Under the pieces are notes generated by a model. The model saw only the letters and a program-made list of their open reading frames with translations. It was not told where the DNA came from and made no database searches. 64,000 bases of DNA. It comes from Frankineae bacterium MT45 (GTDB taxonomy: Bacteria; Actinomycetota; Actinomycetes; Mycobacteriales; Jatrophihabitantaceae). Shown piece by piece: positions 21,040 to 36,499 of this stretch. The translations under genes and the position numbers were made by a program. Each line of letters starts with the position of its first letter. Positions within the stretch are counted from its first letter, which is position 1. The stretch lies in assembly GCA_900100325.1 (NCBI GenBank), contig LT629697.1, positions 3,469,423-3,533,422 of the forward strand, in the 5' to 3' direction.

Positions 21040-22404
21040 ATGGAGGGGGCATTCGACGCGACACCTGACTCACCCGTCGAGGGTGAGTTCACGGCGCCTG
21101 TGCGGGTGCCGTCGTTCGCGGATGCGGTGATGTGCCCGGATGGTGTGGCGGCGTGGTTGGCGGTGCATGAGCCAGGTCCGGAGACCGGGGCGCTGCTCGG
21201 TGTTCTTGATCCGGAGCGGTTGAGTCATGTCGGTCGGGTGGACATGTTGATCGCGGTCCGCCGGCAGCAGGCCTGGTTCGCGGCGACCGAAGCGTCCCTG
21301 CTCGCCTCAATCAGCGATCACGCTGAGGAGTTGGCCCCGGACCGGCAACTGGCCTGGGAAGCAGCCGAAGCCGACGTCTCCTGCGCGTTGCAGATCCCCT
21401 CGACCCGAGCATCGTGGGCGCTATTTCATGCCAGCACCCTGGTCCAGCGGATCCCGACCACCCACCAACTCCTGGTCGAGGGGCGGACCACGGCGCGGCA
21501 CGCGATGACCCTCGTCGGCGCCGTCACCAACATCCCCGAACCCGACATCGTTCAGCGGGTCGAGGCGGCGGTGCTACCGAAAGTGGAGCATCAGACCCCG
21601 ACCCAGTTCACCAACACCGTCCGCCGCGCCGTCGCGAAATTCAACCCTAAAACCGAAACTCAGAAACACCACGACGCCGTCGCTGAACGCAGGGTGGCCC
21701 GGTTCCCGCACGATGACGGGATGGCCGCGATCTGGGCTTACCTCCCCGCCGACGCCGCCGACGCGGTGATGGTCGCGGTCAACGCGGTCGCCGACCAAAC
21801 GAAAGCTGACTCCCCGGGTGATGAGCGGTCGGCGGACCAGCGCCGGGCCGACGCGTTCCTCGCCATCGCGTTGCAGGCCTTGAATGACCCGGGGCTGCCG
21901 AAAGCCCACGGGATGCGCCCCAGCGTCCAGGTCACCATCGCCGCCACCACACTCCTCAACCTCGATGAGCTGCCGGGTGAGTTGGACGGGTACGGCCCGA
22001 TCCCCGCCGTCCTGGCCCGCAAGATCGCCGCCGACCCGACGGGAACCTGGCGCAGACTCGTCACCGACCCCGTCACCGGCACCCTCCTCGACTACGGCCG
22101 CACCACCTACAAGCCACCACGCAACCTCGCCGATTTCGTCATCACCCGCGACCAAACCTGCGCCTTCCCCACCTGCAGTAGAAGTGCGAGACGCTGCGAC
22201 CTCGACCACCGAATCCCCTACCCCGCCGGCGGCACAAGCGACGCGAATCTCAACGCCCTATGCCGAAAGCACCACCGACTCAAACACCACCTCGGCTGGA
22301 CCCTCACCCACAGAGACACAACCGGCAACCACCACTGGACCACCAAGACAGGCCACCACTACCAATCCACCACCCCACCCGCCAGCGACCCCGACCCACC
22401 CTGA
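21040..22404 (+). CDS. DUF222/HNH endonuclease (13E12-like) protein
   Basis: 454 residues. The N-terminal two thirds is DUF222 (residues about 40-330). The C-terminal HNH nuclease has TCAFPTCSRSARRCDLDHRI with its zinc cysteines, then NLNALCRKHHRLKHHLGW. Such genes are very common, often multicopy, in Actinobacteria (M. tuberculosis REP13E12 members). A GGGAG site precedes the ATG. Only one copy is in this window, and no terminal repeats or integrase accompany it. Its biological role is unsettled. Confidence 0.9.
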   Translation: MEGAFDATPDSPVEGEFTAPVRVPSFADAVMCPDGVAAWLAVHEPGPETGALLGVLDPERLSHVGRVDMLIAVRRQQAWFAATEASLLASISDHAEELAPDRQLAWEAAEADVSCALQIPSTRASWALFHASTLVQRIPTTHQLLVEGRTTARHAMTLVGAVTNIPEPDIVQRVEAAVLPKVEHQTPTQFTNTVRRAVAKFNPKTETQKHHDAVAERRVARFPHDDGMAAIWAYLPADAADAVMVAVNAVADQTKADSPGDERSADQRRADAFLAIALQALNDPGLPKAHGMRPSVQVTIAATTLLNLDELPGELDGYGPIPAVLARKIAADPTGTWRRLVTDPVTGTLLDYGRTTYKPPRNLADFVITRDQTCAFPTCSRSARRCDLDHRIPYPAGGTSDANLNALCRKHHRLKHHLGWTLTHRDTTGNHHWTTKTGHHYQSTTPPASDPDPP

Positions 22405-24246: not shown

Positions 24247-25350
24247 TCAGACTCCTGCCAATTCGATGGTGGGGACAGCCGGCCGCCAGCCCAGGGCGGG
24301 CGCGACCTCGGTGCTGATGAGTTCCAGAGCGCGGATGGCCGCGTCATGATCCGGCACGGCCGGATTGAACTGGGCGATCAGGTCGGTCGCCACCGGCAGC
24401 ACTCGCTCCTGCTGCAGTTCGGCGACGATCTCATCCGGGTGCCCGTAGAAGGAGTGGAAGCGGCGCAGCGCCTCCTCGACGCTCAACCCGGGCCGGAAGC
24501 CGCCCTTGACGCCGAACTTCTCGGCCGCCCGCTGCACGTCGGCCCCGATCTGCTCAAGCGCGCTGCGCTTGTCGGCCGCCGGGAAGATGAACCGAGACAG
24601 CCCGATTCGCGGCGCCCGCGGCTGATGCCACACCGACAGGAATGCGTCAGCCCACGGCCGCTGCACCTCATCGGTCGGCTGGTCGTACCCGTATGCGGCC
24701 CGGTTCAGCAGCAGATTCGACGCACCGGCCGCCGCATACTCAGCCCCCGGCTGGCTGAAGACGCCCTGCCAGATCCGCTCACTGAAGTCGGCCACCGGCG
24801 GCTGAATGGTGAAACCCGGCGCCCCAACCTCCTTATTGGATAAGGCAGTTCGCAGGACGGCCAACCCCTCGCTGGTGAGCTCTCGTTTGCGTGCAGCGTC
24901 CCGTCCGAACGCCGCGTACTCAAGCTCACTGGCCCCGCTGCCGACACCGATCTCGACGCGTCCACCGCTGAGCGTGTCGACGACGGCCACGTCCTCGGCC
25001 AGGCGCACCGGGTGCTCCAGCGGGAGGATCGTGATCGCCGTGCCGAGCCGGATCCGCTTCGTACGGGCGGCGGCATGAGCCAGGAAGGTCCACGGCGAGG
25101 GGAGGCCGCCGCCGAGGCTGACGTGATGCTGCGCGACCCAGCCGACGTCGAAGCCCAGTTCGTCGGCGGCGACGAAGAGTTCCTGCGCGTTGCGGTAGGT
25201 CTGCCCAAGATCGTCGCCGCGTCCCTGGACGTGAGTGAGGAAGCCCAGCCGGAAGCGGGGCCGGTCAAGCTGGTCCAGCTGGTCAAGCTGGTCCAGCTGG
25301 TCGGGGCGGTCAAGCCGGTCTGGCTGGCCAGGTCGGTCAAATGAGGTCAT
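24247..25350 (-). CDS. luciferase-like (LLM) flavin monooxygenase
   Basis: 367 residues from ATG 25350, chosen for the GGGAG site 8 bases upstream. The first 31 residues are a low-complexity Asp/Gln/Leu/Pro tail coded by 9-bp tandem repeats. The TIM-barrel domain then starts at FRLGFLTHVQGRGDD. Other motifs are GWVAQHHVSLGGGLPSPW, IRLGTAITILPLEHPVRLAED and LSGGRVEIGVGSG. It resembles the 2I7G/KPN_01858-type subgroup of FMN/F420 luciferase-like proteins, distinct from the two NtaA-type enzymes of the same operon. The electron source is FMNH2 or F420; no reductase is encoded nearby. Confidence 0.85.
   Translation of the reverse strand: MTSFDRPGQPDRLDRPDQLDQLDQLDQLDRPRFRLGFLTHVQGRGDDLGQTYRNAQELFVAADELGFDVGWVAQHHVSLGGGLPSPWTFLAHAAARTKRIRLGTAITILPLEHPVRLAEDVAVVDTLSGGRVEIGVGSGASELEYAAFGRDAARKRELTSEGLAVLRTALSNKEVGAPGFTIQPPVADFSERIWQGVFSQPGAEYAAAGASNLLLNRAAYGYDQPTDEVQRPWADAFLSVWHQPRAPRIGLSRFIFPAADKRSALEQIGADVQRAAEKFGVKGGFRPGLSVEEALRRFHSFYGHPDEIVAELQQERVLPVATDLIAQFNPAVPDHDAAIRALELISTEVAPALGWRPAVPTIELAGV
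25267..25338. repeat. 9-bp tandem repeat inside a coding region
   Basis: Eight 9-base units (AAGCTGGTC/CAGCTGGTC alternating four times, then four diverged units). On the coding strand they give the N-terminal DQL/DRP tail of the monooxygenase at 24247-25350. Units one/three and two/four are identical, which points to recent slippage. Confidence 0.8.
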
Positions 25351-27083: not shown

Positions 27084-28424
27084 TCAGCCCTGCGATCCGA
27101 CGAGCTCACGGCTGTACCGGTTGGCCGGAATCGGAAGGCCGAGGTGACCGCGCAGCGTATCGGCCTCGTACTCGGTCCGGAAGAGGCCGCGCTGCTGCAG
27201 GATCGGGACGACGCCATCGACGAAGAAATTCAGTTCCTCGTCGGTGCGGAACGCCAGGTTGATGCCGTCAAAGGTCCCGGCCTTGAACCAGCTCTCGATC
27301 GTGTCGGCCACGGTCTGCGGCGACCCGACGAAGGGCGAGCGCTTGAAGTCCGACGCGGAGTCGACGACCTGGCGCAGCGTGAGGTTCTCCCGCCGAGCCC
27401 GCTCGATGATCTTGGTCGCCCCGGTCCGTCCGCCCCGCTCGGCCAGATGCGCGACGTCGGGGAACGGCCCGTCCGGGTCGTACTGGCTGAAGTCGTGGGC
27501 GCCGAAGCCGCGCCCAAGAAGGGCCAGGTTGCTCGCGAAGTCGTTGTCCTCCTCGAAGATCTCGCGCTCCCGGGCCCGGGCGCGTTCGTCGGTGGCCGCG
27601 ACCACCGGGCCGCCATGGATGAAGATCTTGATGTGGTCGGGGTCCCGACCGGCCTCGGCCGTGCGGCGCTTGATATCGCTGTAGTACTCGCGGGCTTGCT
27701 CCAGCGAACCACCAGGGGCGTAGATCCCCTCGGCGACCTGAGCGGCCAGATTCCGCCCCTCCTCCGAGACGCCGGCCTGGAAGATGACCGGCTGTCCCTG
27801 CGGGGAACGCGAAAGGTTCAGCGGGCCGGCGACGCTGAAGTGCTCGCCGACGTGCTCGAGCGCGTGCAGCTTGGACGGGTCCAGGAAGACGCCGCGCTCG
27901 ACATCAGCCGGGAAGGCGTCGTCCTCGTAGGAGTCCCAGAGACCGCGGATCACCTGCACCGACTCCAGAGCCCGTCCGTATCGGCTGGCGTAGTCGAGGT
28001 GTTCGTCCAGCCCGTAGTTCCGTGACGTCCCGGTGTCGAAGCTGGTGACGACGTTCCACCCGGCCCGGCCGCCGCTGATGTGGTCGAGGGAGGCGAAGCG
28101 CCGCGCCAGATTGAAGGGCGAGTTGTAGGTGGAGCTGGCGGTGCCGACCAGCCCGATCCGGTTGGTGTGCACGGCTACCGCCGAGAGGAGGGTCAGCGGC
28201 TCCAGCCGGTTCAGGTAGTGCGACGGGTAGGTGCTGTTGATGAACTGGCTGTCCACGATGAAGAGGGCATCGAAGAGTGCCTGCTCCGCTGTCTGCGCCT
28301 GCTTGATGTAGTAGCGGATGTCGATGCTGGCGTTCTTGGCGACCCGGGGGTCCTTCCACAGGCCGTGCTGGCCGGGGCCACCGACTCCATAGGGATGGAG
28401 GGCGAGATGGAGTTTGGCGGTCAT
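27084..28424 (-). CDS. NtaA/SnaA/DmoA-type flavin monooxygenase
   Basis: 446 residues of the two-component luciferase-like family that includes nitrilotriacetate, EDTA, dibenzothiophene sulfone and dimethyl sulfide monooxygenases. Typical blocks are GGPGQHGLWKDP, DALFIVDSQFINSTYPSHYL, LEPLTLLSAVAVHTNRIGL, DHISGGRAGWNVVTSFD and SRSPQGQPVIFQAGVSEEG. It needs reduced FMN from a separate reductase, and none is in the operon. It is clearly paralogous to 33814-35205, the first gene of the operon, and follows the importer genes closely, so it probably oxidises what the importer brings in. Confidence 0.9.
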   Translation of the reverse strand: MTAKLHLALHPYGVGGPGQHGLWKDPRVAKNASIDIRYYIKQAQTAEQALFDALFIVDSQFINSTYPSHYLNRLEPLTLLSAVAVHTNRIGLVGTASSTYNSPFNLARRFASLDHISGGRAGWNVVTSFDTGTSRNYGLDEHLDYASRYGRALESVQVIRGLWDSYEDDAFPADVERGVFLDPSKLHALEHVGEHFSVAGPLNLSRSPQGQPVIFQAGVSEEGRNLAAQVAEGIYAPGGSLEQAREYYSDIKRRTAEAGRDPDHIKIFIHGGPVVAATDERARAREREIFEEDNDFASNLALLGRGFGAHDFSQYDPDGPFPDVAHLAERGGRTGATKIIERARRENLTLRQVVDSASDFKRSPFVGSPQTVADTIESWFKAGTFDGINLAFRTDEELNFFVDGVVPILQQRGLFRTEYEADTLRGHLGLPIPANRYSRELVGSQG

Positions 28425-28481: not shown

Positions 28482-29306
28482 TCAGGCATTGAGCTGCGCA
28501 CGCAGGGCGACGCGCTCGGCTCGGCTGGCTGCGCTGGATCGCAGTGTCGGCGCCGAACCGACGAGCAGCCGGGTGTAGACGTGCTGGGGTGCGGTGATGA
28601 TGCTGCGGGTCGGGCCGGTCTCGACCAGCTCGCCGCGGTACATGACGGCGATCCGATCGGTGACTCCGGCGACCGAACCGAGATCGTGGGAGATGAAGAC
28701 GATCGCGACGCCGGTGTCCCGCAATTCCTTGAGGATCTCCAGCACCTCGACCCGGTTGGCCGAATCCAGCGCGCTCACCGGCTCGTCGAGGATGATCAGC
28801 TGCGGTTGCGTGACCAGAGCCCGGGCGACGGCAACCCGCTGCCGCTGGCCGCCCGACAACTCCCCGGGTAGCCGCTCCAGCAGTTCGTCCTCCAGATGCA
28901 CCCGGGTGAGCATCTCCCGCACCCTGCGGTCGGCGTCGGCCCGGTTGAGGCCCTGGATCAGCAGGGGTTCGGACAGCGAGTCGCTGATCGTGACGTCCGG
29001 GTCGAGGCTGCGTAGCGGATCCTGGAAGACGTACTGGATCACCCCGCGGCGCCGCAGCGAGAGCCACTTCCGTCGCCGGTAGCCGCTCACCTCCTCGCCC
29101 GCGATGCGAATCGATCCCGCGGCCGAGGGCACCAACCCGAGGACGGTGCGGGCCAGCGTCGACTTCCCCGACCCCGTCTCACCGATCAGGCCAAGCGTCT
29201 CGCCCGGGCGGATCTCAAGGTGGACCCGATGCAGGGCCTGCCGCCGCCGTCGCCCTTTGCCGTAGTAGACGTCCAGACCATCGATCTGCAGCACCGGATC
29301 GCTCAT
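28482..29306 (-). CDS. ABC importer ATP-binding protein (DppF/OppF type)
   Basis: 274 residues. Walker A is GETGSGKSTL, the signature is LSGGQRQR, and Walker B is LIILDEPVSALD followed by the switch His in FISHDLGSV. The Q-loop segment FQDPLRSLDP is typical of the oligopeptide/dipeptide family. It overlaps the upstream ATPase gene by 4 bases. It pairs with the product of 29303-30223 to power uptake through the two permeases. Confidence 0.93.
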   Translation of the reverse strand: MSDPVLQIDGLDVYYGKGRRRRQALHRVHLEIRPGETLGLIGETGSGKSTLARTVLGLVPSAAGSIRIAGEEVSGYRRRKWLSLRRRGVIQYVFQDPLRSLDPDVTISDSLSEPLLIQGLNRADADRRVREMLTRVHLEDELLERLPGELSGGQRQRVAVARALVTQPQLIILDEPVSALDSANRVEVLEILKELRDTGVAIVFISHDLGSVAGVTDRIAVMYRGELVETGPTRSIITAPQHVYTRLLVGSAPTLRSSAASRAERVALRAQLNA

Positions 29307-30223
29307 CGCTGCGCCCCGTCGGTCAACAGCGCTTCGGAGGCACTCTCCGCTGCAAGGTAGCGATCCAGGCCGTAGAGCTCATGCTCGGCGATCAGCAGTC
29401 TGGTGTACTCATGCTGCGGGTTGTGCAGCACCTCAGCTGTCGGTCCCTGCTCGACCACCTCCCCCTGCCGCATCACCAGCACCTCGTCACAGAGCTGCGC
29501 GACGACGGCGAGATCATGCGAGACGACCAGCAGGGCCAGACCAGTGCGCTCGCGCAGATCGGCCAGCAGATCGAGGATCTCCGCCTGCACGGTGACGTCC
29601 AACGCGGTGGTCGCCTCGTCGGCGATCAACACCTTCGGATCAGCGGCGATCGCGGTGGCGATGAGGACGCGCTGCAGCATCCCGCCGGAGAGCTCGAAGG
29701 GGTACTGCTCGTAGACCAGTGCCGGGTTACGCAGTTGGACGGCGGTGAGCAGTTCCAGCGCCCGCTGCCGAGCCTGGCGCCGGGAGAGCCCCAGCTTTAC
29801 CCGGACGACCTCGGCCACCTGGGCGCCGACCCGGATCGAGGGGTTGAGGTAGGAGGCCGGATCCTGGAAGACGGCGCTGATCGTCGAGCCCCGCAGGCCG
29901 GTCCACTGCTTCGGCGTCAGGCTCGCGATGTCCTGCCCAGTGATCTCGATCGAGCCGGCCGAGACCGCGAAGTGCTCGGGGAGAATCCCCAGCGCCGCCC
30001 GGCACGTCAGCGTCTTACCGCTCCCCGACTCGCCGACGATTCCGATGACCCGCCCGGGGGTCAGTTCGAAGGAGACGCCGTGGACGATCTCGCGGTTGCT
30101 GATGTTGTCCCGTACCCGCACGTCGCGGACGCTCAGCACCGCACGGTCGGCCGCAGCAGCAACGGTACGGACGGGTGACGCGGCGGCGACCGGCTCGGCC
30201 GTGCGCTCGGAGAGGATCGTCAT
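29303..30223 (-). CDS. ABC importer ATP-binding protein (DppD/OppD type)
   Basis: 306 residues. Walker A GESGSGKTLT, Q-loop FQDPASYLNPSI, signature LSGGMLQR, Walker B LIADEATTALD and switch VVSHDLAVV are intact. An N-terminal extension of about 25 residues (AAASPVRTVAAAADRA) is unusual and unstructured. It overlaps both neighbouring genes by 4 bases, so the importer genes are tightly coupled. Confidence 0.93.
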   Translation of the reverse strand: MTILSERTAEPVAAASPVRTVAAAADRAVLSVRDVRVRDNISNREIVHGVSFELTPGRVIGIVGESGSGKTLTCRAALGILPEHFAVSAGSIEITGQDIASLTPKQWTGLRGSTISAVFQDPASYLNPSIRVGAQVAEVVRVKLGLSRRQARQRALELLTAVQLRNPALVYEQYPFELSGGMLQRVLIATAIAADPKVLIADEATTALDVTVQAEILDLLADLRERTGLALLVVSHDLAVVAQLCDEVLVMRQGEVVEQGPTAEVLHNPQHEYTRLLIAEHELYGLDRYLAAESASEALLTDGAQR

Positions 30224-31110
30224 GAGGACCTGCTTTCCACGGGGACGGATTGGGCGCTCGCGGCGTTGGCCCGGGCCTTGCTGGCGTTGATCAGCGCCCG
30301 GCCCGACTCGCCGGAGACGTCACGGATGGCGTCGGCGAGCAGGTTGCAGCCCCAGACCGTCAGCACGATCAATGCGGCCGGCGCGACCGGAGCCCAGGGC
30401 TGGTAGTGCAGGTAGTTGAGGTCGGAGGCGAGCATCCCACCCCAGGTCGGGGCCGGCGGCTGCACTCCGATCCCCAGAAAACTAAGGCTGGAGACGACGA
30501 TGAAGCCGACGCCGATCGTCTGAGCCAGCGCGACGGCGATGGCCGGCAGCACCTTGACCCAGACGTGCCGACGGACGATCCAGGTCACCGAGGCCCCGGC
30601 GATCAGGGCCGCCTCGACGTACTGCGATCGGGCAACGGCGAGGGTGGCCGCCCGCGAAACCCGGTAAAAGACGGGCGAGACGAGGACCCCGACCACCAGC
30701 ATCGCCTGGGTGATCCCGTTGCCGAGCAGCGCGGTGACCGCTACCGCGAAGACCAGAAACGGCAGCGCGATCAGGGTGTCGGCCAGGCGCAGGCTGGTCC
30801 ACTCGAAGGCCCGGCCGAGGTAGACCGAGAGCATCCCCGGGATCACGCCGACCACCAGGGCCACCAGCGCCACCTCGACCGAACCGAGGACGCTGGCCCG
30901 GGAACCCGCCAGAAGTCGGCTGAATGTGTCACGGCCGAGGTAGTCCGTCCCGAGCCAGTACTGCGCAGACGGCGGGGCGAGGGTCTTGGAGGTGGTGGCC
31001 AGCGGGTCATGCGGGGCCAGGATCGGTCCGAGTATGGCCAGCAGCCCGATGAAGAGCAGGATCGCAATCGCCTGGCGCCCGGCCCGCAATGCAAGGACTC
31101 GACGAAGCAT
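30220..31110 (-). CDS. ABC importer permease (DppC type)
   Basis: 296 residues with about six membrane segments: AIAILLFIGLLAILGPILA near the start, then the family's extracellular loop HDPLATTSKTLAPPSAQYWL and GTDYLGRDTFSRLLAGSRAS. The cytoplasmic coupling motif (EAALIAGASVTWIVRRHVW) contacts the ATPases. A C-terminal tail of about 25 residues is polar. It is followed without gap by the ATPase genes. Confidence 0.92.
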   Translation of the reverse strand: MLRRVLALRAGRQAIAILLFIGLLAILGPILAPHDPLATTSKTLAPPSAQYWLGTDYLGRDTFSRLLAGSRASVLGSVEVALVALVVGVIPGMLSVYLGRAFEWTSLRLADTLIALPFLVFAVAVTALLGNGITQAMLVVGVLVSPVFYRVSRAATLAVARSQYVEAALIAGASVTWIVRRHVWVKVLPAIAVALAQTIGVGFIVVSSLSFLGIGVQPPAPTWGGMLASDLNYLHYQPWAPVAPAALIVLTVWGCNLLADAIRDVSGESGRALINASKARANAASAQSVPVESRSS

Positions 31111-31111
31111 C

Positions 31112-32146
31112 TCAGACTCCTCGCTGCGAGGCCGGCGTGACCCGTCCGAGGACGATGTTCACGATCAGGTTGAAGGTGACGACGAGGACGATCGACACCA
31201 CCAGAACCCCCTGCACAGACGGCACATCACCGGCCTGCGCGGCATCGCTGGCGAAGCGCCCGAAGCCCTGCAGGCCGAAGATCCACTCGGTCACCACGGC
31301 ACCGCCGATCAGCGCCGGGAATCGGAGCCCGAGCACGGTGAGGGCGGGACCGGCGCCATTGCGCAACACGTGCCGGTAGAAGATCGGCCGCGGGCTGATC
31401 CCCCGCACCACCGCGCCGATGACGTAGTTCTCCTGATAGGCGCCGATGAGGCCGGAGCGCAACTGGCGGGCCACATCGGCGACGGTGTCGAAGCTCAACG
31501 CCAGCGCCGGAAGCAGTAGGTGGGCAAACCAGGGCGACGCGCCGGCCGCGAAGGGGACGTATCCGCCGGAGGGGAACCACTTCAGCGCCACCGCGAAGAC
31601 CTCGACCAGGATGATCCCGACCACGAACGGCGGCATCACCGAGAAGACGGTGAGAACGCCGGTGATCCCCCGGTCGATCCAGCTGGTCCGGCGCAGCGCG
31701 GCCAGCGTGCCCAGCGCGAAACCGAAGACCACCCCGATCACCAGGGCAATTCCAGCCACCGAGAGGCTGATGGTCAGCCCGTCGCCGATGAGCTGCGAGA
31801 CGCTGACCCCGTTGGACCAGCTCCGTCCCAGGTCGCCGTGCAGGACGCCGTCAAGCCACGTCCAGTACTGGACCAAGAAGGGGCGATCGAGGCCCCACTG
31901 CGACTCGATGCGGTGCACCGCGTCCGGCGTCGCCTCCTCACCCAGTTGGATGCGGGCCGGGCTCAGCCCGCTCAGGGAGCGTAGGGCGAAGGTGATGAAG
32001 GTAGCCAGCAGGAATACCGGCACGAAGATGGCGGCGGAGCGCAGGAGCGTGACCAGGGTGCGGCTACTTGCCCGCCGCACCCTGATCAATCTGATCGCGC
32101 GACGACTGGATACCAAGGTGGGTGCGTATGCAGCTGTGCTAACCAT
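31112..32146 (-). CDS. ABC importer permease (DppB type)
   Basis: 344 residues, about six membrane segments, with the DppB plan: first segment SAAIFVPVFLLATFITFALRS, then the loop with ESQWGLDRPFLVQYWTWLDG and the coupling region YQENYVIGAVVRGISPRPIF. A 30-residue basic N-terminal extension (RRAIRLIRVRRASSRTL) precedes the first segment. One base separates it from the partner permease gene. Confidence 0.92.
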   Translation of the reverse strand: MVSTAAYAPTLVSSRRAIRLIRVRRASSRTLVTLLRSAAIFVPVFLLATFITFALRSLSGLSPARIQLGEEATPDAVHRIESQWGLDRPFLVQYWTWLDGVLHGDLGRSWSNGVSVSQLIGDGLTISLSVAGIALVIGVVFGFALGTLAALRRTSWIDRGITGVLTVFSVMPPFVVGIILVEVFAVALKWFPSGGYVPFAAGASPWFAHLLLPALALSFDTVADVARQLRSGLIGAYQENYVIGAVVRGISPRPIFYRHVLRNGAGPALTVLGLRFPALIGGAVVTEWIFGLQGFGRFASDAAQAGDVPSVQGVLVVSIVLVVTFNLIVNIVLGRVTPASQRGV

Positions 32147-32208: not shown

Positions 32209-33753
32209 TCAGCTGATGGTGACGCCGGTCCAGTCCACGTGTCCCGGGTTGGCCGGGAGCTGCGAGACGTTCTTCGCCTTGGCGAAGAGGTTCGGCGACG
32301 AGTACGTGAAGACCAGAGCCTGACTCTGCAGCCCGGCCCGGGTCGCCGCCTGAAGCGTGCTCGCGTACTCCGGCGATTCGAGTGGCGTCTGCCGGACCTT
32401 GGACACGGCCGCCTCGAAGCCCGCCGGCTCGTACGGCGAGCTCAGGTTGAGCGGTCCGTGCGGCCCGAAGTGCGCGGTGAGCGTCTGCACCGCCGAGTCG
32501 CGGCCGGTCGTGCCGTAGAGCGAGAAGGCCAGATCCTTGGCGAAGAAGGGCGTCGCCCAGTTCTTGTCGACCTTGATGTCGACGTTGATTCCGACCGCCG
32601 CCAGCTGGGACTTCACGACCTCGGCATCGGCCTGCTGAGTGGGGATGTCCAGGGTCAGCTTGATCTGTCCGGGCTGGTAACCGGCCTCGGCCAGCAGTTG
32701 CTTGGACTTCGCCGGATCGTATGGGTACAGACCGGTGGACTGCGGGTCGTAGGCCACATACCCCGGCGGGAACGGCTGGTTGGTGACCTGGCCGTAGCCG
32801 AAGGTGAGCTTGTCCACGAATTCCTGGCGATTGACGGCGTAGCGGACGGCGTCCACCACCTTCGGGTTGTTGAAGGGCGCCTTGTTCACGTTGATGCTGA
32901 TGTTGTTGGCGTTGAATCCCGGCTGCACGAAGACGTCGAGACCGGCCGACTTGGCCGCGCTCGCCTGGGTCGGCGGAATGTCGGCGAAGTTGTAGACGCC
33001 GGTCTGCAGGCCGGAGACGACGGTCGCCGCGTCCGGAGCCGAGATCAGCTGGACGTCGGTGATGTGAATGTTCTTCGCGTCCCAGTAGTTCGGGTTCTTC
33101 TTGAAGACCGCCTTCGTCCCCGGCACGACGCTCGATGCGATGAACGGGCCGGCACCGACCGGATTCTGGTCCAGCGCGGTGGGGTCGGCCGCCGCCTTGG
33201 GGCTGGCGATCTGCAGTACCCGCTCACCGAAGAGGAGCGGAATCTGGTAGTCCGTCTGGGTGAGGTGGACGTCGACGTCGAGGGCGTTGGGGGTCGAGAC
33301 CGACTTGATCGACGTCAGATCCCCGAAGATTGCTGAGTTCTTCTGGGACTTGGCCCGCTCGATGGCGTCCTTCACTGCGCTCGAGTCCACGGCCGTGCCG
33401 TCGCTGAACGTCAGTCCGGAGCGCAGGTGGAAGGTGATCTCGTCTCCGGTCGAGTTGTACTTCCAGCTCTCGGCGAGGTCGGGAACCGCGTTCCCCTTCT
33501 CATCGGTCCGGGTCAGCGCCGAGTACACCAGCGCCAGTTCGCGGAACTGCGCTCCACTGCCGGAGACCACCGGGTCCCAGTGCGTCGGGAAGTAGGAGGT
33601 CGCCCACTTCAGTGTGGGCGACCCACCGGCGGTGGTAGCGGCGGACCCGCTACCGGTGCAGGCGCTGAGGGCGAGCGCCGGCACGGCCAGGGCGGCCGCG
33701 AGTACGACACTGCGCCGCAGGCGGCGAGCGGGTAGCGAGGGAATTGCGGGCAT
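32209..33753 (-). CDS. ABC importer substrate-binding lipoprotein (family 5)
   Basis: 514 residues of the oligopeptide/nickel-type solute-binding family. The N-terminus is basic (ARRLRRS), then hydrophobic, and ends in the lipobox LSAC, so the mature protein begins at that cysteine and is anchored outside the membrane. Family segments include LVYSALTRTDEKGNAVPDLA, SWKYNSTGDEITFHLRSGL and VDAVRYAVNRQEFVD. The bound compound cannot be read from sequence; with the neighbouring oxygenases an organosulfur compound or sulfur-containing peptide is the best guess. Confidence 0.92.
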   Translation of the reverse strand: MPAIPSLPARRLRRSVVLAAALAVPALALSACTGSGSAATTAGGSPTLKWATSYFPTHWDPVVSGSGAQFRELALVYSALTRTDEKGNAVPDLAESWKYNSTGDEITFHLRSGLTFSDGTAVDSSAVKDAIERAKSQKNSAIFGDLTSIKSVSTPNALDVDVHLTQTDYQIPLLFGERVLQIASPKAAADPTALDQNPVGAGPFIASSVVPGTKAVFKKNPNYWDAKNIHITDVQLISAPDAATVVSGLQTGVYNFADIPPTQASAAKSAGLDVFVQPGFNANNISINVNKAPFNNPKVVDAVRYAVNRQEFVDKLTFGYGQVTNQPFPPGYVAYDPQSTGLYPYDPAKSKQLLAEAGYQPGQIKLTLDIPTQQADAEVVKSQLAAVGINVDIKVDKNWATPFFAKDLAFSLYGTTGRDSAVQTLTAHFGPHGPLNLSSPYEPAGFEAAVSKVRQTPLESPEYASTLQAATRAGLQSQALVFTYSSPNLFAKAKNVSQLPANPGHVDWTGVTIS

Positions 33754-33813: not shown

Positions 33814-35205
33814 CTAGGAGACGAGCGCCTCGGCCGGCTGTACGCCTGGGTCGAGGAGTTCGGTCTCCAGCTGGGCCGCCTCCCGGGCCTCGGTGTGGCG
33901 ATTGGGCGGGATGGGCAGCCCGAGGTTGCCGCGCAGGGTCTTCGACTCGTACTCGCTGCGCACGACGCCGCGCTCCCGCAGGATCGGCAGTACCTGCTCG
34001 GTGAAGCGGGCGAATTCGCTGGGGGCGTTGACGCTGATGCTGATGCCGTCGAACCCGCCACCTTCGAACCAGCGCTGGATCTCGTTGGCCACCGTGAGCG
34101 GCGATCCGACGAACGGGGAGCGCCAGGCGACGAGCTGCTCCTGCACCACCTGACGCAGCGTGAGGTTCTTCTCCCGGGCGTTGCGGGTGATCGCCTCGGC
34201 CTGGGTGCGGAAACTACGGGCACCAAGGTGGGCGACGTCCGGGAATGGGGCGTCGAGGTCGTACTGGCTGAAGTCGTGCCAGCCGAACGGGCGCCCGAGT
34301 TCGGCCAGCGCCTTGTCAAAGCTCTTGGCGCCGACGATCGCCGCCTCCTTGGCCAGCGCCTCCTCGTCGGTGTCGGCGATGATCGGGAAGATGCCCGGAA
34401 CGATAAGGACGTTCTCCGGGTCGCGCCCCTTGGCCGCGGCCCGTGCGTGTAGTTCGGTGCGGAAGGCGGCCGCCTGCTCGAGGGTCGGCGCGTGGGTGAA
34501 GATGGCGTCGGCGATGCTGGCGCCGAGGTCGCGCCCCTCCTCCGAGTCGCCGGCCTGGAAGATCACCGGCTGCCCCTGCGGGGAGCGCTCCAGGTTGAGC
34601 GGGCCGACGACCGAGAAGTACTCCCCCTTGTGGTTGAGGGCGTGCTGCTTGCTGCGGTCGAAGAATATGCCGCGCTCCTTGTCCCGCGGGAAAGCATCCG
34701 CCTCGTAGGAGTCCCAGAGTCCCTGCGCGACGAGGACGTGCTCTTTGGCCCGTCCGTAGCGCGTCGGGTAGTCGTAGTGCTCGTCGCGGCTGTAGTTGCC
34801 GGCGGTGCCGGCGTCGCCGCTGGTCACGACGTTCCACCCCGCGCGTCCGCCGCTGATGTGATCGAGCGAGTAGAGGCGCCGGGCCAGGTTGAACGGCTCG
34901 TTGTAGGAGGTGGTGAGTGTGCCGACCAGGCCGATGTTGCTGGTATGCACAGCGATCGCCGAGAGGAGGGTCAGCGGTTCGAGGCGGCTCAGGTAGTGGT
35001 TCGGCGAGTCGGGGGTGATGAACTGGCTGTCGACGATGAAGACGAGGTCGAACTTCGCCGCCTCGGCCTCCTTGGCCCGGTCGATGTACCAGCGGACGTC
35101 GACGCTGGCGTCGGCGGCGACATCTGGGTTCAGCCAGGCGTTGTGCTGGCCGGGGCCACCGGATCCGAGGAGGATGGCGCCGAGCTTGAGGGTGCGGGCG
35201 GACAT
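33814..35205 (-). CDS. NtaA/SnaA/DmoA-type flavin monooxygenase, first gene of the operon
   Basis: 463 residues of the same family as 27084-28424; the two are similar along their whole length (for example VFIVDSQFITPDSPNHYLSR, DHISGGRAGWNVVTSGDAG, ERSPQGQPVIFQAGDSEEG). As the first gene after the leader peptide it should be the most strongly controlled by it. Typical substrates in the family are sulfones, sulfides and aminopolycarboxylates. It needs FMNH2 from an unlinked reductase. Two divergent copies in one operon suggest two successive or two alternative oxidations. Confidence 0.9.
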   Translation of the reverse strand: MSARTLKLGAILLGSGGPGQHNAWLNPDVAADASVDVRWYIDRAKEAEAAKFDLVFIVDSQFITPDSPNHYLSRLEPLTLLSAIAVHTSNIGLVGTLTTSYNEPFNLARRLYSLDHISGGRAGWNVVTSGDAGTAGNYSRDEHYDYPTRYGRAKEHVLVAQGLWDSYEADAFPRDKERGIFFDRSKQHALNHKGEYFSVVGPLNLERSPQGQPVIFQAGDSEEGRDLGASIADAIFTHAPTLEQAAAFRTELHARAAAKGRDPENVLIVPGIFPIIADTDEEALAKEAAIVGAKSFDKALAELGRPFGWHDFSQYDLDAPFPDVAHLGARSFRTQAEAITRNAREKNLTLRQVVQEQLVAWRSPFVGSPLTVANEIQRWFEGGGFDGISISVNAPSEFARFTEQVLPILRERGVVRSEYESKTLRGNLGLPIPPNRHTEAREAAQLETELLDPGVQPAEALVS

Positions 35206-35382
35206 AGGGCTTTGCCTTCCAGATTGAGTTGCGGGTGTACCCGAGGCCGGCCGAGGACCGGACCCGGGCGTTGTTCAGTGCGAAGGTGGTTGGTTTTCCT
35301 GCGCCTTTGGCGCGGAGTCAGCCGCTGCCGCGGCGATCATGCGTCGCTAGCGCGTTGGCTGCGACGGGATCGTCGGCACGCT

Positions 35383-35463
35383 GCTCACGCCAGGCCGGGT
35401 CGGTGTTACCGACACAGCGTGGCGCCCTGGCGGGCATAGTCGAGCCAGCGACAACACGTGAGC
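35383..35463 (-). promoter_or_regulatory. nested hairpin region over the leader peptide (possible attenuator)
   Basis: In the minus-strand transcript three inverted repeats are nested around the leader. GCTCACG (35457-35463) pairs with CGTGAGC (35383-35389), CGCCAGG (35426-35432) pairs with CCTGGCG (35388-35394), and GTCGGT/ACCGAC (35408-35413 with 35399-35404) forms a small hairpin over the last codons and stop of the leader. The two outer stems share two bases, so they can compete. That is the kind of arrangement expected for a ribosome-position switch. Confidence 0.6.
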
Positions 35464-35465
35464 AT
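35406..35465 (-). CDS. cysteine-containing leader peptide (uORF) of the sulfur-type operon
   Basis: A 19-codon frame reads MLTCCRWLDYARQGATLCR and stops with TAA. Its tandem Cys-Cys and the ending LCR, with the DxxRxxA spacing, match the pattern of leader peptides I know from actinobacterial sulfur-assimilation operons (for example ...HVDLxRxxSALCR). A GTG codon directly before the ATG could also start it. It lies about 200 bases before the monooxygenase at 35205 and is enclosed by nested inverted repeats. The likely role is cysteine-dependent attenuation: with little Cys-tRNA the ribosome stalls and the operon is read. Confidence 0.7.
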   Translation of the reverse strand: MLTCCRWLDYARQGATLCR

Positions 35466-35485
35466 CACGTTCGTTGGGCGACTCA

Positions 35486-35506
35486 TGTCTAGTAGTCTGC
35501 TAGACA
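35486..35506. promoter_or_regulatory. 21-bp palindrome, copy 1
   Basis: Perfect arms TGTCTAG and CTAGACA around a 7-base spacer, about 20 bases upstream of the leader peptide start on the minus strand, at the expected promoter position of the operon. A near copy lies at 35565-35585. The likely binder is the LysR protein encoded next to it. Confidence 0.7.
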
Positions 35507-35564
35507 AGATCAAGAATGTCCAATGAGCCTTTCTGATCGTGACCGATCACATCCGCTAATGGAT

Positions 35565-35585
35565 TCTCTAGTAGTCTGGTAGACA
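35565..35585. promoter_or_regulatory. 21-bp palindrome, copy 2
   Basis: Matches copy 1 at 19 of 21 positions and ends on the first base of the LysR start codon. Binding here would block the LysR gene's own expression. The two centres are 79 bases apart. Confidence 0.7.
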
Positions 35586-36499
35586 TGCCCCGCACCCTGG
35601 ACATCGCGCCGCTGCGCAGCTTCGTCGCCGTGGCCGATCAGGGCGGCTTCCAACGCGCAGCCCGTTCGCTGCACCTCAGCCAAGGCGCGGTCAGCCAGCA
35701 CGTGCGCCGCCTGGAGGCGGCCATCGGCCGGCCCTTGGTCGTGCGGCAGGGGCGCGGGTCGAGCTTCACCGCCGATGGTGAGCAGCTCCTCTCCCGGGCC
35801 CGGCGAATCCTCGCACTGCACGACGAGAGCCTGCTCAGCTTCGGGGTCGAGACCGAAGAGACGGTGGTCATCGGCTCGACCGAGCATGCCGCGGCGCAGT
35901 TGCTCCCCGATCTGGCCGCCGCGCTCGAACGGAGCCTCCCCGATCACCGGGCCCGGTTCCGGATCGACCGCGGGACGCAGCTACGCGAAGGACTCTCGGC
36001 CGGACGAATCGACATGGCCCTGCTGCTGGGCAGCACCGACGACCCCCGCGCCGAGCCGGTCGGGGCGCTGGAACTCACCTGGTACGCCGCGCCCGGCTGG
36101 CGGCCTCCGAGCAGCGCGCCGATGCCGCTGGTCGCCTTTGACGATCCATGTGCGCTACGCACGCGGGCGCTGGAGACCCTCGCCGAGCACTCCATCCCGG
36201 CCGAGATCAGCACCGAGGCTCCGCAGCTGGCTGGCGTGCAGGCGGCAGTCGGGGCCCGCCAGGGGGTCGCCCTGATGGCGACCCTCGGCCAGACCCCGGC
36301 CGGCCTCGTCGAACATACTGAGCTGCCGAAGCCCCGCCCGCTTCCGCTGGCGCTCTGGTCCCGTCCGGGCCTGAGCACCGAGGTCGTCCGGGCCACCGCC
36401 GACGCACTCCGCCGGCGACTGCGCAGCGATACTGGCGCCGACGACGAAGTACCCGAACCTGCCACGCGACCAACGATCGAATTAGTCAGAGGTGCCTGA
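35585..36499 (+). CDS. LysR family transcriptional regulator
   Basis: 304 residues. The DNA-binding part reads LDIAPLRSFVAVADQGGFQR, then AARSLHLSQGAVSQHVRRLE, typical for LysR. The effector domain (about 90-290) is diverged and shortened. The C-terminal 25 residues are polar. It is divergent to the monooxygenase/importer operon, with the paired 21-bp palindromes between, so it likely controls that operon and itself. A sulfur metabolite as effector would parallel CysB/Cbl but is not proven. Its stop overlaps the cupin start (TGATG). Confidence 0.9.
   Translation: MPRTLDIAPLRSFVAVADQGGFQRAARSLHLSQGAVSQHVRRLEAAIGRPLVVRQGRGSSFTADGEQLLSRARRILALHDESLLSFGVETEETVVIGSTEHAAAQLLPDLAAALERSLPDHRARFRIDRGTQLREGLSAGRIDMALLLGSTDDPRAEPVGALELTWYAAPGWRPPSSAPMPLVAFDDPCALRTRALETLAEHSIPAEISTEAPQLAGVQAAVGARQGVALMATLGQTPAGLVEHTELPKPRPLPLALWSRPGLSTEVVRATADALRRRLRSDTGADDEVPEPATRPTIELVRGA

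Follow-up and report, generated by a model that had tools for sequence, protein, structure and literature searches.

In Mycobacterium smegmatis, leaderless ORFs containing cysteine codons reportedly attenuate their downstream genes (Canestrari 2020, PMC8764745), and texts citing this mycobacterial work describe it as translation attenuation, not as a Rho-dependent process. For the mycobacterial cys leaders of Seliverstov 2005 (PMC1262725), Rho was suggested in a prediction that its authors called weak. That study (PMC1262725) did not settle how actinobacterial cysteine leaders lacking terminator hairpins work, and the question appears to have been answered since for mycobacteria only. Ribosome-mediated attenuation has also been proposed for an upstream Cys-codon frame before Rhodobacterales cysS, the uORFC-8-2 motif (PMC8632094). 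Leaders of the actinobacterial kind are represented in NCBIfam by NF042934 (cis_reg_atten; cut-off 27 bits) and NF042933 (Ms5788A; cut-off 45 bits).

The window (the whole 64,000-nucleotide stretch of Frankineae bacterium MT45 DNA that was analyzed) carries a short cysteine-codon frame on its minus strand. It encodes a 26-residue leader peptide that is conserved among soil actinobacteria and precedes a probable sulfur-scavenging operon. The leader shares with the mycobacterial polycysteine short ORFs, as citing texts present them (Canestrari 2020), a probably leaderless Cys-codon frame before cysteine-related operons, but it lacks a long run of Cys, has a single steady UGU, and shows no folding support for start-site sequestration. 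With the candidate leaders of Seliverstov 2005 it has in common that terminator hairpins are unconserved and that Rho is suggested; those leaders differ in having Cys-codon runs near the stop and in preceding cys operons and cbs (PMC1262725). In contrast to the window leader, uORFC-8-2 is described with tandem Cys, dominant UGC, two stems, and a U run (PMC8632094). We consider it slightly better than an even bet (probability about 0.55), by analogy with such systems, that 35486-35406 is a leader gene through which the monooxygenase/importer operon would respond to the supply of cysteine (sulfur). The features of the locus are collected in Table 1.

Table 1. Features of the leader, its operon, and the promoter region (window positions)
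Feature	Position	Strand	Basis
Gene of the leader peptide (26 codons and a stop), MSRPTNVMLTCCRWLDYARQGATLCR	35406..35486	-	Sequence; frame and start kept in relatives
UGU codon of Cys25, proposed control codon	35412..35414	-	TGT in 38/38 window-type leaders; canonical leaders
Cys11-Cys12 codons, tandem pair, not conserved	35451..35456	-	Cys at 11 in 21/38, at 12 in 22/38
Gap of 200 bases from leader to monooxygenase, with 78 C and 58 G; candidate region for Rho loading	35206..35405	-	Composition
First operon gene, NtaA/DmoA-family FMN monooxygenase (LLM)	33814..35205	-	TIGR03860, 484 bits (cut-off 280)
Substrate-binding protein, peptide/nickel-type importer	32209..33753	-	Nearest models, below cut-offs
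Importer permease 1	31112..32146	-	Nearest models, below cut-offs
Importer permease 2	30220..31110	-	Nearest models, below cut-offs
Importer ATPase 1	29303..30223	-	Nearest models, below cut-offs
Importer ATPase 2	28482..29306	-	Nearest models, below cut-offs
Second NtaA/DmoA-family monooxygenase	27084..28424	-	TIGR03860, 491 bits (cut-off 280)
Third luciferase-like monooxygenase, start approximate	24247..25350	-	Nearest TIGR04027, 265 bits, below cut-off 413 (scanned from 25341)
TTGGAC, probable -35 element, 31 bases before leader ATG	35518..35523	-	Spacing kept in relatives
CAGACT, probable -10 position, 7 bases before ATG	35494..35499	-	Aligned by eye
TGATCGGTCACGATCA, inverted repeat, candidate LysR-family operator	35534..35549	-	Sequence; similar blocks in relatives by eye
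Divergent LysR-family regulator	35585..36499	+	Family search

An earlier note on this DNA had read the minus strand from 35465 to 35406 as MLTCCRWLDYARQGATLCR plus stop, and the sequence agrees. The frame is real and conserved, but the start at 35465 was too short by 21 bases: the conserved start is the in-frame ATG at 35484-35486, which yields the 26-residue peptide. A true start at 35465 was dropped because the ATG at 35486 and its distance from TTGGAC are conserved. The spacing between TTGGAC and ATG was 31 bases in 25 of the 38 leaders described below and 32 in another 10 (35/38 together); the exceptions were L069, without TTGGAC, and L095 and L098, without an in-frame ATG at that distance. 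By eye, the -10 place held CATGCT, CATACT, or CAGTCT in relatives. Given TTGGAC at 31 or 32 bases and a probable -10 position at 7 bases from the ATG, the leader transcript is probably leaderless, starting at the ATG itself. The 11-mer AGACTACTAGA occurs twice on the minus strand, at 35488-35498 beside the leader start and at 35567-35577 near the LysR start codon; the two copies look like two regulator sites.

Family searches confirmed that the operon combines three luciferase-like monooxygenases with an importer, as had been noted before; a FAD monooxygenase sits between the second NtaA/DmoA-family and the third luciferase-like enzyme. In the titles and abstract openings searched, with subscription papers mostly outside their reach, no report was found of a cysteine leader before a luciferase-like monooxygenase operon. 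Elsewhere in the window, the plus-strand ORF at 21040-22404 has a C-terminal part that we take, from its motif, to be HNH nuclease-like.

The upstream regions of homologous monooxygenase genes were compared using the best 80 of 123 homologue loci from a scan of species genomes. The 81 regions comprised the window, L007, and 79 loci; L092, with one base upstream, was left out. A search expression demanding R19, C25, and their spacing, with R or C at position 13, V, L, or I at 15, and D or E at 16, found the leader motif on the coding strand in 38/81 regions and on the reverse complement in 0/81, so the frame is beyond chance. A profile built from the 38 leaders refound all of them and added six, giving 44/82 regions; in this genome, it had a single match at E ≤ 0.001 (E 6.6e-17). 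Because 43/81 regions lacked a leader by the search expression, the operon can do without one. All these counts include related, and not independent, sequences.

L9, R13, D16, R19, and C25 were invariant in the 38 leaders, and T10 (36/38), W14 (33/38), and L15 (32/38) were nearly so; L9, T10, and W14 alone are fully independent of the search expression, which demands R19 and C25 and partly sets R13, L15, and D16. Position 13 was Leu in five profile-only relatives. The codons changed synonymously, with R13 encoded by CGC in 25, CGT in 8, CGG in 4, and CGA in 1 and D16 by GAC in 28 and GAT in 10, indicating selection on the peptide. The alignment of upstream regions that the note had proposed thus shows what it anticipated, a peptide kept (in 38/81) with synonymous codon changes. 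Among 24 genomes, seven, including this one, had a monooxygenase match at E ≤ 1e-120. An orthologue with 78-93% identity was present in five other genomes; four kept the 26-codon frame and its ATG, and the fifth had a different Cys-rich frame in its place. Carriers of the leader include Frankia, Parafrankia, Kineosporia, Actinokineospora, Amycolatopsis, Nocardioides, Asanoa, and Phytohabitans, as well as Pseudonocardia, in which the leader form is more canonical.

The divergent LysR gene was present in all 42 leader-bearing loci tested. Among 38 loci without a profile match, LysR lay within about 180 bases in 9, was absent in 21, and was elsewhere in one (L090); the remaining 7 had room for a leader. 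Five of these roomy loci had another Cys-containing frame (L068, L084, L089, L097, and L110, that of L089 being broken), and two Kineosporia loci (L056 and L062) had neither TTGGAC nor a leader despite the room. In L084, a Hamadaea bin, the nine-residue frame MSRATFCCC (Cys codons TGT TGT TGC) begins 32 bases after TTGGAC, and this short Cys run possibly replaces the motif leader. L089, from Actinokineospora auranticolor, has LTCRRWL 32 bases after TTGGAC and then loses the motif; it is probably a decaying leader. Upstream of the monooxygenase of Protofrankia coriariae (L055), MTQSATVLLTCCRWLDLAR is kept and followed by an early, frame-shift-like end (SHC stop), with no Cys at the expected place.

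The steady element of these leaders is the cysteine nine residues after Asp, which is encoded by UGU in every intact leader examined. TGT was found at Cys25 in 38/38 window-type leaders and at the same cysteine in the 5/5 intact profile-only relatives; the frame-shifted L055 lacks that Cys. The background frequency of TGT was 15% (413/2690 Cys codons in long open frames of genic base composition, taken from 80 loci and the window), and the difference from Cys25 gave a Fisher value of 5e-31, which is nominal since the sequences are related. At the other cysteines of window-type leaders (codons 1-24), TGT was used in 35/56 cases; C25 alone is absolute.

Canonical leaders were collected with NF042934 from 24 family genomes, 23 of which had a match at E ≤ 0.01, and from 118 class genomes, at least 80 of which had a match at E ≤ 1e-4. 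From these, 117 loci were taken: each search supplied 30, and the 57 rows that came next in the class list were added. Their own profile refound 110/117 loci with 116 matches, 112 of them distinct. The motif Cys was TGT in 112/112, and the other cysteines were TGC in 79 cases and TGT in 10 (Fisher 3e-45). The seven loci missed by the profile all had TGT on direct inspection, as did three further leaders from the A2 loci below (10/10 in total). A first, cruder count of 60 canonical loci (TGT 51, TGC 6, 3 not found) was superseded by the profile count; its six TGC were wrong picks, with L020, L026, L033, and L137 off frame and L129 and L136 at a neighboring Cys, and one of its TGT (L028) was likewise off frame. 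Matches to NF042933 at E ≤ 0.001 occurred in 55/61 order genomes, and the Ms5788A-type leaders had TGT in 20/20 loci. Of the 20 A2 loci, 17 entered the aligned set (L237, which is the window, L238, and L256 were left out); 13 of these aligned, all with TGT, and the four unaligned ones, one of window type and three already counted above, likewise had TGT. The 33 aligned Ms5788A-type and A2 leaders contributed 20 with new distinct DNA.

In the union of canonical leaders, TGT was thus found in 132/132 distinct sequences, whereas the other cysteines were TGC in 103 of 114 and TGT in 11, and the Asp codon was GAC in 93 and GAT in 38. The codon is locked while the Asp codon and the other cysteines vary, and descent alone is therefore insufficient to account for it. 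The search expression and the profiles score translated protein, and no codon bias of the selection was seen; within Cys runs the motif Cys was set by the profile alone, the preceding position being Cys in 5/112 and the following one in 9/112. The base after UGU was C in 83, T in 24, A in 4, and G in 1 of the 112 canonical leaders and C in 26, T in 8, A in 4, and G in 0 of the 38 window-type leaders; L241 and L253 have Ala, hence G, at this place. In the literature searched (titles and abstract openings, subscription papers mostly outside), no report of such a UGU lock was found.

The genome had 46 Rfam tRNA matches, and ARAGORN run on all of them identified one tRNA-Cys, with anticodon GCA; UGU is therefore presumably read by wobble. 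Wobble reading would be slower, and a pyrimidine after the codon would weaken decoding. For tRNA-Cys, a modification of A37 that depends on sulfur would also be relevant. In Mycobacterium tuberculosis, miaA/miaB and a predicted ms2i6A are reported (PMC10531406). Tentatively, and at somewhat less than even odds, we propose that these leaders use one control codon, always UGU, placed at a fixed nine residues after Asp in a conserved Arg/Asp nascent chain, rather than a count of cysteine codons; read by wobble by the sole tRNA-Cys, it may sense both lost charging and lost sulfur-dependent modification, for example, of 2-methylthio at A37.

In the E. coli tnaC system, a paused leader ribosome denies a site to Rho. 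The window leader may resemble it, by analogy, in a pause at the leader end that shields a Rho site; tnaC differs in its tryptophan-induced arrest, and no relationship is claimed. We envisage that the transcript would begin at the leader ATG. A shortage of charged or fully modified tRNA-Cys would, with help from the nascent chain, slow the ribosome at the wobble-read UGU close to the frame's end. By pausing there, the ribosome would leave the operon switched on, most likely because it shields from Rho the C-rich stretch that comes next; with plentiful cysteine, it would leave, and transcription would stop early. The LysR-family regulator would provide a second input at the promoter, and the tie of the leader to cysteine itself is drawn by analogy. 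The excess of C over G in the gap was positive in 38/38 leaders (mean 0.21), compared with 35/36 (mean 0.08) in the gene and 0.03-0.04 upstream; after the canonical leaders it was 0.18 (positive in 103/111), against 0.00 before them. By its base composition the C-rich gap would suit Rho loading. Against the Rho step stand the slightly positive skew of the gene itself, the weakness that Seliverstov 2005 ascribed to its own prediction, and the translational terms in which the mycobacterial work is summarized.

The same leader could instead work at the level of translation, with the leader or downstream RNA covering the monooxygenase ribosome-binding site until a ribosome stalled on the leader frees it. 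The M. smegmatis leaders reportedly act in this manner, a stalled ribosome opening the ribosome-binding site, and they are the nearest experimentally studied precedent, called attenuation of downstream translation in citing texts; moreover, the monooxygenase start has a GAAGG-type site 14 bases upstream. In folding, however, a ribosome blocking codon 25 changed the openness of the site by a mean of 0.002, compared with -0.001 for shuffled gaps (36 of the 38 leaders had a site, and 8/36 assumed starts were not ATG). Blocking the tandem Cys changed it by 0.010, compared with 0.002 for shuffled gaps (36 leaders). A rise above 0.1 was seen in 1/36 leaders (8/36 starts misplaced), against 0 for the null mean. 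Start-site sequestration thus showed no effect in folding, which is a weak test, and the leader-to-gene distance varied from 38 to 370 bases in the folding set. Translational control of this kind appears rather unlikely to us. The earlier note favored a different arrangement, in which a stall at the tandem cysteines toggles two nested stems. In this genome both 7-base pairings (GCTCACG/CGTGAGC and CGCCAGG/CCTGGCG) hold exactly, but within 40 bases after the stop and allowing G-U pairs, the first was possible in 1/38 leaders and the second in 0/38, where shuffling expects 0.6 and 1.1. Three perfect 7-bp pairs were observed, against 0.58 expected, and 5.2% of 1000 shuffles reached three, so the stems are hardly beyond chance. 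Nested stems were ruled out by this lack of conservation across the 38 leaders, and the marks of a classical hairpin attenuator are missing, since the 200-base gap also has, by eye, no T run such as an intrinsic terminator would need. Control by competing hairpins was likewise not borne out, as the stems are unconserved and blocking the leader did not open the monooxygenase start region in folding, within the limits of that test. A known structured RNA was ruled out in the window, where Rfam gave no match at gathering scores. The tandem cysteines did not hold as the key sensor, for Cys is present at position 11 in 21/38 and at position 12 in 22/38, with R or S in many relatives, and they were rejected as a conserved sensor in spite of their UGU preference where present (14 at position 11 and 16 at position 12, 30/43 together versus the 15% background). 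They may be helper control codons. The toggling of nested stems is therefore improbable.

The UGU might also be fixed by an RNA-level need, such as pairing or recognition by a protein or nuclease, and not by decoding. The next base is C or T in 107/112 canonical and 34/38 window-type leaders, so the constraint may exceed the codon; however, the flanking bases are mostly variable, and canonical leaders write their other cysteines mainly as UGC. In the 38 folds, the U of UGU was paired less than its neighbors (0.47 versus 0.64), and a common RNA partner was ruled out, none being shared across them. We regard this reading as quite unlikely. That the frame yields a small protein with a function of its own, and not a cis-acting leader, would fit the conservation at the amino acid level, but the peptide is short, its end varies from 0 to 15 codons past the last motif Cys in the 112 canonical leaders, sulfur-type genes follow where checked, and a protein has no need of a locked codon; we give this very little credence. 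A leader gene conferring cysteine (sulfur) responsiveness on the operon remains our preferred reading.

Like an attenuator, the window leader is, by sequence, a conserved short Cys-codon frame upstream of sulfur-type genes. Its resemblance to the leaders of the two NCBIfam families lies in its length, the R and D motif, and the UGU Cys nine residues after Asp. The NF042934 pattern of Asp, Arg three residues later, and Cys nine later is present in 38/38 window-type leaders, although the search expression demanded it, and at the same ungapped spacing canonical leaders have Asp in 111/112 and Cys in 112/112. The window type differs in its TCCRWLDYAR core, and the peptide had no match to any NCBIfam model: none to NF042934 at E ≤ 10 (0/22 relatives at E ≤ 1) and none to NF042933, which 4/22 relatives matched (best E 5e-4). 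We therefore call it a putative divergent variant of the actinobacterial Cys-rich leaders, outside NF042934 and NF042933 by model test.

At E ≤ 0.01, NF042934 matched four leaders in this genome, three of them over the cut-off and all ending in TGT. In nearest-model scans, the genes following the four leaders were of sulfur type, and in this the window leader is alike. One leader precedes a monooxygenase that narrowly misses the TIGR03860 cut-off; one, an importer whose nearest models, with cut-offs it does not reach, are those of cystine importers; and one, a gene whose nearest model, likewise below cut-off, is 3-mercaptopyruvate sulfurtransferase. CysD and CysN, over their subfamily cut-offs, lie about 0.8 kb downstream of another. 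A second monooxygenase-like cluster of this genome (L157, 476-5482), whose first gene was scanned, carries the leader FSRRHIDLQRVCAALCPAGH, which falls under the NF042934 cut-off. The idea of an actinobacterial-type cysteine leader peptide before a sulfur-type operon is supported by the conserved frame, the likeness to known leaders, and the operon content.

These results suggest that the LysR-flanked monooxygenase/importer operon is part of a cysteine regulon, and they reveal a leader variant of Frankia, Kineosporia, Actinokineospora, and their kin that the NCBIfam models left unrecognized in these searches. The locked UGU, together with its fixed spacing in the peptide, narrows the question of mechanism to one codon and a single silent base, and the lock may be a hint at how such leaders sense sulfur shortage. 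If the proposal is true, the leader would be a sulfur sensor built from decoding speed and nascent-chain geometry.
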